Assembly (NCBI RefSeq): GCF_014189855.1
Contig: NZ_BJFN01000003.1
Span: 310,001-374,000 of the forward strand
DNA from: Buttiauxella sp. A111
Lineage (GTDB): Bacteria > Pseudomonadota > Gammaproteobacteria > Enterobacterales > Enterobacteriaceae
Length of the DNA stretch: 64,000 nt
Reading direction: 5' to 3'
Of the stretch, positions 15,568-20,254 are shown piece after piece (position 1 is the stretch's first letter; every line of letters begins with the position of its first letter). The notes beneath the pieces were generated by a model. It saw only the letters and a list, made by a program, of their open reading frames with translations. It was not told the origin of the DNA and made no database searches. The position numbers and the translations under genes are program-made.

Positions 15568-15644
15568 GCGCCCTTAGCTCAGTTGGATAGAGCAACGGCC
15601 TTCTAAGCCGTAGGTCACAGGTTCGAGCCCTGTAGGGCGTACCA
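15568..15644 (+). tRNA. argU: tRNA-Arg (anticodon TCT)
   Basis: A 77-base cloverleaf: acceptor GCGCCCT pairs with AGGGCGT, the D arm is AGCTCAGTTGGATAGAGC, the anticodon loop CTTCTAA holds TCT (reads AGA), the T arm is GGTTCGAGCC, and the 3' CCA is encoded. It is close to E. coli argU, the rare-arginine tRNA used by prophage DLP12 and other elements as an attachment site. No second copy of its 3' end was seen in the window. Confidence 0.97.
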
Positions 15645-15683: not shown

Positions 15684-16028
15684 TTAATTTCCCGCTATCA
15701 TTTCCGCTGTCATTTGTGAATTTGCTATCTCTCCATGCTTCATCGGTTGACATTGACCTCCCAAAAACCCGCCATCTTTTGTTTTATGCGGTTTGGGAAA
15801 GGTGCCATCCTTCGCTCACATCTTCCATAACGTTTTATAGCTCTTGCCTGTCAGGCTTTCGACTTCCTTAAATTTCATGTAGCGCGTTGGCAGCTGCGAA
15901 CCATCCAGTTTGCTCAATGGTGTATGTTTTGGTTGCTCGCATATTGGTGAGCCGTCGTGGAAAATACCGAGAGTAATACGCGGTAATTCAAAATTGGAGC
16001 GCGGAATGCTAATCGTGTAATACCGCAT
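15684..16028 (-). pseudogene. AlpA-like regulator remnant with in-frame stop
   Basis: From ATG 16028 the minus-strand frame encodes MRYYTISIPRSNFELPRI... and later RYMKFKEVESLTGKSYKTLWKM, which resembles the helix-turn-helix of AlpA-type excisionase/activators of phages and integrative elements. A TGA at 15816-15818 interrupts it, but the same frame continues with AKDGTFPKPHKTKDGGFLG, the FPKP-type tail of that family, to TAA at 15684. One point mutation (for example TGG to TGA) would explain the break. It overlaps the AraC gene's 3' end by about 20 bases and lies 40 bases from argU, so it is probably a scar of a tRNA-targeting element. The family call is by eye. Confidence 0.5.
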
Positions 16029-16845
16029 CCGGCGGTGGTGGTGCGACTTCATAACGTGAAGGCGATACGCCAAATAATTGGCGGAATGCATAGGTGTAAG
16101 CAGACGTGCTGCCATAACCCAGCATCAATGCAATTTCAGTCACGCTTCGCGACTGGCGCAATAAAATAATCGAATGCAGCAAACGGTGCCTCTGTTTCCA
16201 GTTGCTGAATGTGATGCCCGTTTCTTTAATAAAATGCCGTGAAAAAGTCCGTGGTGACATACCCACACGCTCAGACCACTCTTCCATTAAATGAGGTAAA
16301 TCCGGTGATTCACTGATTTGCTGGCACATTTCCAGCAGCGCCGGAGCCGTTGGCCAGGTAATTGCAAAACCCGCAGCCGGAAGGTCATTGAGCACATCGA
16401 GCAAGGTTGAAACTAACCGCCCTTCTTTGCCATCGGCATCATAGTACTCAGGAATAGTTTGCGTGGCATGGTGGATAAAACTGCGCGCAAAGTCAGATAC
16501 CGTCACCAGCTTCAATTCAGATTTCCCGCATTTCGACTCATAATATTCTGGATCGATATCCAGGTTTTCCAGCATCACTTCACTGGCGGTGTGCACTAAA
16601 TGAGGGGTGAATGCTGGGATCCACAATCCATAGCAAGCGGGAATAATGTACGAATTATTCTCCACGGAAACGTATAAGGAGCCTTCACGAGCGTAGTGAA
16701 ACTGGACAAACGGATGAGAATGGAGTTCAGACTGCACATTTTCTGCCAGCGTGAACGATCTAAAAAAAACGGGGCGAGCAAGCCTGGCCCCTTCTGCATC
16801 CTTCTCTGAGCGGAACGAGTAGAGCATCTTTTTCGGTTTAGCCAT
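16009..16845 (-). CDS. AraC-family transcription regulator
   Basis: A 278-residue regulator with an N-terminal cupin-like effector domain (HSHPFVQFHYAREGSLYV, residues 42-59) and two C-terminal helix-turn-helix motifs (VGMSPRTFSRHFIKETG; SVTEIALMLGYGSTSAYTYAFRQLFGVSPSRYE). The layout matches the cupin-AraC group that senses small molecules. It is divergent from the cfa-metK pair across 421 AT-rich bases and is the natural candidate to control it. Its last codons overlap the AlpA-like pseudogene. Base composition looks more AT-rich than folD. The effector is unknown. Confidence 0.85.
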   Translation of the reverse strand: MAKPKKMLYSFRSEKDAEGARLARPVFFRSFTLAENVQSELHSHPFVQFHYAREGSLYVSVENNSYIIPACYGLWIPAFTPHLVHTASEVMLENLDIDPEYYESKCGKSELKLVTVSDFARSFIHHATQTIPEYYDADGKEGRLVSTLLDVLNDLPAAGFAITWPTAPALLEMCQQISESPDLPHLMEEWSERVGMSPRTFSRHFIKETGITFSNWKQRHRLLHSIILLRQSRSVTEIALMLGYGSTSAYTYAFRQLFGVSPSRYEVAPPPPDAVLHD

Positions 16846-17266
16846 CTATCCCACTTAAATTGACGCTTGATCGACACAACTTGGCATCCCTTCATGATAC
16901 ACAAACCTTGTAAGCTGCGATAATTAATTCATAACTTCAGTCAATGAATAACCAAAGATCAATAAAGTTGTAACATATGCTTATTTTAATTTGACGACGT
17001 AATAAACCTTCTCTTTAAAACGCGAATAACCTTAATGACACCAAACTCGTTAATATTAAAAATGAGCGAAACAACCCTCTCCAAAATAAGATAGCAACGT
17101 GAGTCACCTATGATCTTTTTAATGATTGATTGTGAATTAATAGCAAACCTGGAAATACGTTGATGTTGTGGAAAACGTTGAACGCCAGGCTAGCCTTTTG
17201 ACGAAATATAAACAAGTTCTGATAGTCGAGTAGAAAACTGACATAAGCTTTTACTGAGGATGAGAT
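16846..17266. promoter_or_regulatory. AT-rich divergent promoter region (AraC regulator / cfa)
   Basis: 421 bases, strongly AT-rich, between divergent genes. It must hold both promoters and the presumed AraC-type binding sites. I see no convincing paired direct repeats and cannot place the boxes. The composition would suit H-NS binding, which is inference. Confidence 0.4.
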
Positions 17267-18415
17267 ATGAGTGTTGAAGTTGAAAGTGCACCCGTCCCAC
17301 GCAAAGACAACTGGTATCGGATTGCAGAAGATCTTTTAAACCAGGCTGATATCCGCTTTAACGGAAGCCGTCGCTGGGATATTCAGGTACACAATCCTGA
17401 CTTTTATAAACGTGTTTTGCAGGAAGGTTCTATTGGCCTCGGCGAATCCTACATGGAAGGTTGGTGGGATTGCGCGGCACTGGATGTTTTCTTTGAGAAA
17501 ATCCTTCGCGCAAAACTCGATGAGAAAATGCCAAAAAACTTCAGGGACTTAATCCGTGTCGCAGGTATGCGTTTGTTCAATTTACAGACGCGTAAACGCG
17601 CGTGGATTGTTGGCAAAGAGCATTACGATATCGGCAATGATTTGTTCGCCAAAATGCTCGATCCTTATATGCAGTATTCCTGCGGCTACTGGAAAAAAGC
17701 GACCAGTTTGCCACAGGCTCAAGAAGCCAAATTGAAAATGCTGTGTGAAAAATTGCAGCTGCAACCCGGTATGAGATTGCTGGATATTGGCTGTGGCTGG
17801 GGCGGTTTGGCGCAGTACGCCGCCGAACATTACAATGTTCATGTTACTGGCGTGACCATTTCAGAAGAGCAACAGAAAATGGCTCAGGATCGTTGCACCT
17901 GGCTGGATGTCTCTATCAAGCTGATGGATTATCGCGACCTCGACACCACGTTTGACCGCATTGTTTCAGTCGGTATGTTTGAACATGTCGGCCCAAAAAA
18001 CTACGACACCTATTTTGAAGTGGTGAACCGTTGCCTTAAACCGGGCGGAATGTTCCTGCTTCATACTATCGGTGCAAATAAATCTGATAACAATGTCGAT
18101 GCCTGGATTAATAAATATATTTTCCCCAACGGTTGTCTACCTTCTGTGAAACAAATCGCGAGCGCGTCAGAACCGCATTTTGTCGTCGAAGACTGGCATA
18201 ACTTCGGCGCTGATTATGACCTGACATTAATGGAGTGGCATCAGCGTTTTAATCGTTTCTGGCCGGAGATTCAAAATAATTATACCGAGTCATTTAAACG
18301 CATGTTCAATTATTACCTGATGTCTTGTGCGGGAGCTTTCCGCGCGCGTGATATTCAGCTCTGGCAAGTGTTATTTAGCCGTGGTGTCGAAGGCGGGATG
18401 TACGTTTATCGCTAG
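17267..18415 (+). CDS. Cyclopropane-fatty-acyl-phospholipid synthase (Cfa), island copy
   Basis: Transfers a methylene group from S-adenosylmethionine to the double bond of unsaturated phospholipid acyl chains, giving cyclopropane lipids that protect membranes against acid and solvent. Its 382 residues span the whole E. coli Cfa sequence and resemble it throughout. The SAM-binding loop LDIGCGWGG is at 172-180. Residues known to bind the catalytic bicarbonate in E. coli fall at the same numbers: Cys139 (YSCGYW), Glu239 (MFEHVG) and His266 (LLHTIG). The usual chromosomal cfa lies between ydhC and ribC, which are absent here. The gene is followed 54 bases later by metK and faces an AraC regulator, so it is probably a second, regulated copy. 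Confidence 0.93.
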   Translation: MSVEVESAPVPRKDNWYRIAEDLLNQADIRFNGSRRWDIQVHNPDFYKRVLQEGSIGLGESYMEGWWDCAALDVFFEKILRAKLDEKMPKNFRDLIRVAGMRLFNLQTRKRAWIVGKEHYDIGNDLFAKMLDPYMQYSCGYWKKATSLPQAQEAKLKMLCEKLQLQPGMRLLDIGCGWGGLAQYAAEHYNVHVTGVTISEEQQKMAQDRCTWLDVSIKLMDYRDLDTTFDRIVSVGMFEHVGPKNYDTYFEVVNRCLKPGGMFLLHTIGANKSDNNVDAWINKYIFPNGCLPSVKQIASASEPHFVVEDWHNFGADYDLTLMEWHQRFNRFWPEIQNNYTESFKRMFNYYLMSCAGAFRARDIQLWQVLFSRGVEGGMYVYR

Positions 18416-18468
18416 TATCTTCTGTTACGACGACTCAATATGTCAGTTATTAATTTAAGGATTTTCGT

Positions 18469-19614
18469 ATGTCACAACAATTATTCACCTCAGAATCCGT
18501 TTCTGAAGGGCACCCAGACAAAATAGCCGATCAAATTTCTGATGCCATTCTTGATGCTATTATTGAGCAAGACCCAAAAGCACGTGTCGCTTGTGAAACT
18601 CTGGTCAAAACGGGCATGGTTTTAGTGGGGGGAGAAATTACTACCGACACCTGGGTGGATATTGAAGAAATTGTGCGCCGCACCATCCATGATATTGGAT
18701 ATAACAGCTCAGAAATGGGTTTTGACGCGAATACCTGTGCGGTATTAAGTGCGATTGGTAAACAGTCTCCTGATATTAATCGTGGCGTTGATCGAGAGGA
18801 CCAGGCGAATCAAGGTGCGGGTGATCAAGGGATTATGTTTGGCTATGCCTCGAATGAAACCGACGCGTTAATGCCCGCACCTATCACCTTTGCTCACCGC
18901 TTAATGGCTCGCCAGGCACAAGTGCGAAAAAACGGTTTATTGCCATGGTTAAGGCCTGATGCAAAAAGCCAGGTCACGCTTGCTTATGAGAACGGTAAAA
19001 TTACCGGTATCGATACTGTTGTTATATCTACACAACATAGTGAAACCGTGACTCAGCAAATTTTGCGCGAAGGCGTCATGGAAGAGATAATTAAACCTGT
19101 TTTGCCACAAGAGTGGCTAACGCGTGAGACCAAATACTTTATTAATCCGACTGGCCGGTTCGTTATTGGCGGCCCAATGGGTGACTGCGGGCTAACAGGC
19201 CGAAAAATCATTGTTGATACTTACGGCGGTATGGCGCGTCATGGTGGTGGTGCATTTTCAGGCAAAGATCCTTCAAAAGTAGATCGTTCAGCAGCTTATG
19301 TTGCACGCTATGTTGCAAAAAATATTGTCGCAGCTGGGTTAGCTGAGCGTTGTGAAATTCAAATTTCTTATGCCATTGGAGTTGCAGAGCCCACGTCAAT
19401 TATGGTGGAAACATTTGGAACGGGAAAACTTAAGAATGAAACTCTAATTATGCTTATTCGCGAATTTTTTGACCTTCGTCCACATGGATTAATTCACTCG
19501 CTTAATTTATTGCAACCTATTTATCAGCAAACAGCGGCCTATGGTCATTTTGGACGTGATATATTTAGCTGGGAACAGACAGATAAAGCTGACCTTCTAC
19601 GTTGTTTCCTTTAA
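18469..19614 (+). CDS. S-adenosylmethionine synthetase (MetK), island copy
   Basis: Makes S-adenosylmethionine from methionine and ATP. At 381 residues it is three short of E. coli MetK and differs mainly at the C-terminus (ends DLLRCFL). Catalytic segments are intact: [15 protein letters not shown] (ATP and Mg2+), [13 protein letters not shown] (flexible loop and signature) and [19 protein letters not shown] (phosphate loop). The chromosomal metK normally sits near speA and galP, not here, so this is probably a paralogue. It shares strand and a 54-base gap with cfa, suggesting an operon that supplies SAM for lipid cyclopropanation. Codon use is AT-rich (many TTA, ATT, AAA) compared with flanking genes. 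No clear terminator follows. Confidence 0.93.
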
Positions 19615-19792: not shown

Positions 19793-20254
19793 ATGCAGCA
19801 CAACGATATTCAACGCAGGAAACTGTCGGAACGCATCTTCCACGCCGTCTGTTTCGAGGGTATTGCCACGGCGATCCTCGCTCCGACGACCGCCTGGCTA
19901 ATGCAGCGCCCGGTGCTGGAGATGGGGGGATTAACCATTATCCTCGCCACCACAGCGATGATCTGGAACATCATCTATAACGCCGGTTTCGACAGGTTGT
20001 GGCCGAGGCATAAAGTGATCCGCACCGCCAAAGTCCGCGCCCTGCACGCCCTCGGCTTTGAAGTCGGGTTTATTTTTATCGGCGTCGGCATTGTGTCGAT
20101 GGTGCTGGGGGTAAGTCTGCTTCAGGCATTCACCCTGGAAATAGGCTTCTTTATTTTCTTCCTGCCGTACACCATGCTTTATAACTGGGCGTACGACACT
20201 CTGCGCGATCGTTTGATGACGCGACGCCAGCAGCAGCGAGCTATCACAGACTAA
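19793..20254 (+). CDS. PACE-family multidrug efflux transporter (AceI-like)
   Basis: A 153-residue inner-membrane protein with four membrane segments arranged as two bacterial-transmembrane-pair domains: SERIFHAVCFEGIATAIL..., then RALHALGFEVGFIFIGVG... . This is the PACE (proteobacterial antimicrobial compound efflux) family, whose founder AceI exports chlorhexidine in a proton-driven way. The conserved first-helix Glu is present in CFEGIA. A ribosome-binding AGG lies 6-8 bases before ATG 19793. It is monocistronic with a terminator directly after. Higher GC than cfa-metK suggests the island ends before it. Confidence 0.88.
   Translation: MQHNDIQRRKLSERIFHAVCFEGIATAILAPTTAWLMQRPVLEMGGLTIILATTAMIWNIIYNAGFDRLWPRHKVIRTAKVRALHALGFEVGFIFIGVGIVSMVLGVSLLQAFTLEIGFFIFFLPYTMLYNWAYDTLRDRLMTRRQQQRAITD

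Follow-up and report, generated by a model that had tools for sequence, protein, structure and literature searches.

Three genes lie side by side in the window, which is the whole 64,000-nucleotide stretch of Buttiauxella sp. A111 DNA that was analyzed: an araC-type regulator, a second cyclopropane fatty acid synthase gene (cfa2), and a second S-adenosylmethionine (SAM) synthetase gene (metK2). All three are intact in the open reading frame list (Table 1). The initial annotation had described a complete cfa followed by a complete metK on the same strand, which holds, with a gap of 54 bases, which measures 53; the divergent AraC-type regulator that it placed facing the pair was found. Its observation that both genes are more AT-rich than their neighbors is borne out by GC contents of 46.2% (cfa2) and 44.2% (metK2), compared with 53.1% for folD and 51.5% for the yqeG-like transporter gene. 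A gene for a PACE-family efflux transporter is found at 19793-20254, just 3′ of metK2.

Table 1. Positions of the genes and other features of the araC-cfa2-metK2 locus in the window
Feature	Position	Strand	Description
tRNA-Arg (anticodon tct)	15568..15644	+	adjoins folD; the cassette lies near here in the window species
araC-type regulator	16009..16845	-	278 aa, AraC_binding-like at the N-terminal end and HTH_18 at the C-terminal end; transcribed divergently from cfa2
araC-cfa2 intergenic region	16846..17266		421 bp, 34.7% GC; presumed site of divergent promoters
AaeB/FUSC-like pump gene, 3′ remnant	17166..17233	+	~22 codons and stop; identified by alignment with the intact gene (L129 10906-12879, -)
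cfa2, second cyclopropane-fatty-acyl-phospholipid synthase	17267..18415	+	382 aa, complete ORF
cfa2-metK2 gap	18416..18468	+	53 bp; terminator-like sites absent, met-box matches at chance level
metK2, second SAM synthetase (methionine adenosyltransferase)	18469..19614	+	381 aa, complete ORF

Both proteins pass the cut-offs of curated NCBIfam equivalog models, and their predicted activities are cyclopropane-fatty-acyl-phospholipid synthase for Cfa2 (PRK11705, 662 bits with a cut-off of 400) and methionine adenosyltransferase for MetK2 (TIGR01034, 651 bits with a cut-off of 309). The bicarbonate-site residues Cys139, Glu239, and His266, which had been reported as kept in Cfa2, are present in the alignment at exactly those positions. 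MetK2 carries all three domains PF00438, PF02772, and PF02773, and the window protein, the one MetK2 checked in this respect, keeps the residues that we take to be catalytic or ligand-binding. A role of cfa2 as a defense gene was set aside, the gene having matched only part of one methyltransferase-type defense model (mad2).

Resident copies and phylogeny

The window genome (G000, 4.89 Mb) has residents of both genes, cfa at C1:324762 and metK at C2:377948, whose proteins are 70% and 80% identical to Cfa2 and MetK2, respectively, so the standard copies whose presence elsewhere in the genome had been presumed do exist. The resident metK sits between speA and galP, as anticipated. The anticipated position of the resident cfa, near ydhC/ribC, stood in part: in E. 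coli, cfa sits between punC and ribE, and punC (ydhC) adjoins the Buttiauxella resident cfa, but neither E. coli ribE nor mdtK has a match within its 1.5-kb flanks. Resident MetK proteins of Buttiauxella and E. coli share 95% identity; the window MetK2 is approximately 80% identical to both.

Trees of both proteins, which the initial annotation had called for, place the cassette Cfa and MetK proteins in clades of their own. All seven cassette Cfa proteins are found on one side of a branch with 100/99 support, and all six cassette MetK proteins on one side of a branch with 100/100 support, in each case apart from the Buttiauxella residents. With residents elsewhere in the genome and the trees separating the cassette proteins from them, vertical orthology of cfa2 or metK2 was ruled out. 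MetK2 branches outside the other Enterobacteriaceae MetK proteins with modest support (92/85) in a midpoint-rooted tree where the cassette stem is long (0.4), a position that would fit either a foreign origin or an old, fast-evolving paralogy. The third-position GC content of metK2 is 0.35 in the window (18469-19614) and 0.53 in G006 (L132 4947-6092); the five residents measured range from 0.52 to 0.55.

Occurrence and sites in Buttiauxella

The araC-cfa2 pair is present in six of the 12 Buttiauxella genomes searched, in seven copies, two of which are in G007 (G007a and G007b). An araC homolog adjoins cfa2 in every copy; in six of the seven, cfa2 is followed by metK2 in the same orientation after a gap of 52 to 100 bases. 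The remaining copy is that of G009, from the same species as the window, where araC and an intact cfa2 are found and metK2 stops after four codons, its remainder gone. That the pair travels together in other genomes, which the initial annotation had asked to have tested, is supported by these counts and by the different sites that the block occupies from species to species. At least four contexts are represented: near folD and tRNA-Arg (G000 and G009); between a malic-enzyme gene and a LysR-like gene (G004, where the malic-enzyme gene is broken, and G007a); next to a rhodanese gene, with a malic-enzyme gene (G001) or a RIO-like gene (G006) on the other side; and among transposase-like ORFs (G007b). 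Malic-enzyme and rhodanese genes were assigned by profiles, and the LysR, RIO, and transposase genes by eye.

The site of the G006 copy, where 3.5 kb of araC-cfa2-metK2 lies between the RIO-like and rhodanese genes, was examined in nine further genomes. In cassette-free G010 the same two genes are approximately 0.25 kb apart, which represents a near-empty site. Their spacing is approximately 0.75 kb in G005 and 0.9 kb in G002; in G004, G000, G009, and G003 they are separated by 2.7 to 8.3 kb of other sequence; and the RIO match is absent from the stretch examined in G007 and G008. Close to the G006 cassette (L132 10997-15484) there is a small ORF whose product has a double-glycine-like leader, followed by what appear by eye to be an HlyD-like gene and a peptidase-containing ABC exporter-like gene.

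Between G004 and G007, dS is 0.08 to 0.09 for the resident cfa and metK genes but 0.30 to 0.50 for the cassette genes, which occupy the same site in both genomes. This would suggest that the block has been exchanged between strains. No transposase or integrase gene was found between araC and metK2 in the ORF lists of six copies, there being no recombinase gene inside the block, and no common end sequence was apparent when the copies were compared by eye. The 3′ part of the tRNA-Arg gene is repeated in G009 around an 8.4-kb insertion (L127 2846-11478), not around the cassette; the window, which lacks that insertion, has a single copy of this 3′ part.

The initial annotation overlooked a third gene, an AaeB-like pump gene that formerly stood between araC and cfa2. 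In G007b (L129/L007) it is intact at this position, encoding a 657-aa FUSC-family protein that matches the FUSC domain PF04632 and scores 771 bits, below the AaeB equivalog cut-off of 870. Remnants are found in the window, in G004 and G007a, where a shorter 3′ part has a junction unlike that of the window, and in G001, where both ends are kept and the middle is gone; none was seen in the G006 copy. Given the intact gene and the remnants, the ancestral order was probably araC divergent from pump-cfa2-metK2, and comparison of the copies indicates that the pump was probably lost or broken more than once.

The idea of an acquired cassette is well supported. The two events on which it was to be abandoned, that these are the sole cfa and metK copies or that they are vertical orthologues, did not come true, since the genes are extra copies and not vertical orthologues, the pair travels with araC, and the sites differ between species.

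Relatives beyond Buttiauxella

Of 392 family genomes sampled, 35 have relatives of the AraC protein (E at most 1e-60): four are Buttiauxella and the other 31 belong to 15 genera. Outside Buttiauxella, a cfa gene adjoins araC in 20 of 26 short loci and in 14 of 20 loci with wide flanks, the latter from 10 genera, and 11 of the 13 searched genomes with these loci have two cfa genes. Neither metK nor the pump gene was found in any of the 20 wide-flank loci. Several of the araC-cfa loci are accompanied by lrgAB-like and lutB-like genes, assigned by family tests in one locus (L188 5490-11888, from another genus) and by eye in the others, which hints at a lactate/pyruvate link.

At 93% identity or above, relatives of metK2 turned up in Buttiauxella alone (four of 392 family genomes sampled), and the next closest reaches 82%. 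A search for a donor under strict cut-offs, covering samples of 392 genomes from the family, 394 from the order, and 369 from the class, returned nothing above 82% outside Buttiauxella. In 5,426 E. coli genomes, no locus covers 80% of the araC-cfa-metK segment. Carriage on plasmids was rejected, a near match to the cassette being absent from the plasmid collection, where the best metK2 identity is 81%; in a distant plasmid search with the pump-bearing copy no record covers 80%, and 10 of 154 records have short pieces at 80 to 95% identity. Among phages, 99 records matched and none covers 80%, and among viral contigs, none of the best 80 of at least 597 MetK2 relatives has cfa, araC, or the pump gene beside metK.

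Some plasmid records contain related genes. On a Klebsiella plasmid typed as conjugative (L254 3446-5110), a partial AraC homolog adjoins a cfa gene placed by the tree among the araC-linked cfa genes of genus g23. A Lelliottia plasmid record (L253 4001-5126) has metK near yqgB, split over frames, and may be chromosomal. A third metK lineage, 63 to 64% identical to metK2, is represented in G007 (L133 9878-11080), G003 (L134 8747-9988), and a Rahnella plasmid (L250 2989-4134), in glycyl-radical/BMC-type loci as judged by eye in the two genomes and by annotation on the plasmid.

Proposed role and comparison with known systems

The regions upstream of the metK genes were scanned for the met box, here a tandem AGACGTCT consensus, a match being a motif match only and marking a putative MetJ site; the E. 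coli resident metK (L248) was left out. All 12 Buttiauxella resident metK genes have a met-box-like tandem motif 154 to 155 bases upstream, with a match of 16 to 17 of 24 that is reached by at most three of 300 shuffles, although the 12 residents are related and not independent. None of the six metK2 upstream regions exceeds the shuffles, nor does the sequence preceding the window cfa2. Between 16700 and 19900 of the window, promoter-like matches are no more frequent than expected by chance (8 found, 6.5 expected), as are terminator-like matches (3 found, 3.1 expected), none of which lies after metK2.

We consider it rather probable that the block is an operon, araC-(pump)-cfa-metK, which is mobile and would supply cyclopropanation with SAM from a source not under MetJ control. 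On some signal, the AraC protein would switch on the rightward genes, presumably as one transcript. Free of the kind of MetJ control that is suggested for the resident metK, MetK2 would make SAM from methionine and ATP. Cfa2 would then spend one SAM per acyl chain in cyclopropanating the membrane. Such a dedicated source could allow a burst of lipid modification that spares the housekeeping SAM pool. A more specific version, which we put forward tentatively as having slightly less than an even chance, is that of an AraC-controlled membrane-hardening operon, mobile and still changing in gene content, whose own MetJ-free SAM synthetase would supply dedicated SAM for a protective cyclopropanation under stress. 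Counted against the cyclopropanation reading are the metK2 loss in G009, the araC-cfa pairs lacking metK, the chance-level promoters, the lack of a terminator-like site after metK2, the modest placement of MetK2, and the failure to find a donor.

Some of this evidence bears directly on metK2. The initial annotation had viewed the pair as self-sufficient; against a strict form of this view stand G009 and the 14 of 20 wide-flank loci where araC-cfa occurs without metK, and the natural loss in G009 suggests that metK2 enhances cfa2 at most and is not required for it. The same two observations would be expected if metK2 were a general SAM booster or spare housekeeping enzyme hitched to araC-cfa2, serving all methylation in a functionally meaningless neighborhood, and the diffusion of SAM would make a dedicated hand-off unneeded. 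That explanation does not account for the same order, strand, and close spacing in six of seven copies at different sites, or for the absence of a met-box-like motif, and we regard it as unlikely.

Loss of genes from the block also raises the question of whether it is a neutral or decaying remnant of a genomic island, with genes that entered by recombination and are now disappearing: only one of the seven copies has an intact pump gene, metK2 is gone in G009, and half of the 12 Buttiauxella genomes lack the block. However, dN/dS values (Nei-Gojobori) are 0.03 to 0.12 for cfa2 (21 pairs), 0.02 to 0.05 for metK2 (15 pairs), and 0.02 to 0.07 for the cassette araC (18 of 21 pairs, dS being saturated in three), and by this measure the three remaining genes are under purifying selection, at interspecies dS values from approximately 0.3 to above 1. 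Both cfa2 and araC are free of internal stops in all seven copies, and we regard decay as very improbable. The residents have dN/dS values of 0.008 to 0.015 (metK) and 0.03 to 0.06 (cfa; 10 pairs each), which indicates that metK2 is constrained, but less so than the housekeeping metK. AaeB-type pumps export aromatic acids, and the intact pump of G007b and the remnants of four other copies could point to detoxification by pump and membrane change under aromatic or weak-acid stress as the main job, metK2 serving a SAM-dependent step other than Cfa2. Against this, cfa2 and metK2 persist in copies that have lost the pump, the block showed no further methyltransferase gene, and the pump scores below the AaeB cut-off; we regard this explanation, too, as very improbable.

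Where metK is single and essential, it is difficult to test whether the supply of SAM limits cyclopropane lipid formation in stationary-phase or acid-stressed cells. Buttiauxella offers a ready-made comparison, having naturally an additional metK next to an additional cfa and, in the same species, a strain that has lost metK2 (G009).

Cfa2 is a full-length homolog of E. coli Cfa (PDB 6bqc), with the same PRK11705 family and the same Cys139, Glu239, and His266; in contrast to E. coli cfa, cfa2 is a second copy in its own clade, with a divergent AraC regulator and metK downstream. MetK2 aligns ungapped over residues 1-378 with E. coli MetK (PDB 7ll3 and 1fug) and shares the residues taken to be catalytic, and it differs from the E. 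coli and resident enzymes in being approximately 80% identical, in its own clade, and without a met-box-like motif. The araC-cfa pairs of other Enterobacterales genera have the same arrangement of an AraC homolog (44 to 52% identity) divergent to a second cfa (65 to 75%), but lack metK and the pump in the 20 wide loci. Among the open-access matches listed for a cfa-metK operon, an AraC-linked second cfa, a link between AaeB and cyclopropane, Buttiauxella cyclopropane work, or a second metK, none showed this arrangement. What appears to be the closest printed parallel found for a SAM-consuming system that has a SAM synthetase to itself comes from passages of two reports that place metK within GRM3 glycyl-radical microcompartment loci (PMC4207490, PMC6384099). 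There too, according to those passages, an accessory SAM synthetase gene lies beside a SAM-using system, although the metK lineage and the SAM user are different; the metK of G003, G007, and the Rahnella plasmid mentioned above belongs to this GRM3-type kind. The Buttiauxella cassette would extend this pattern, as far as it can be drawn from those passages, of a SAM-using system given its own MetK.
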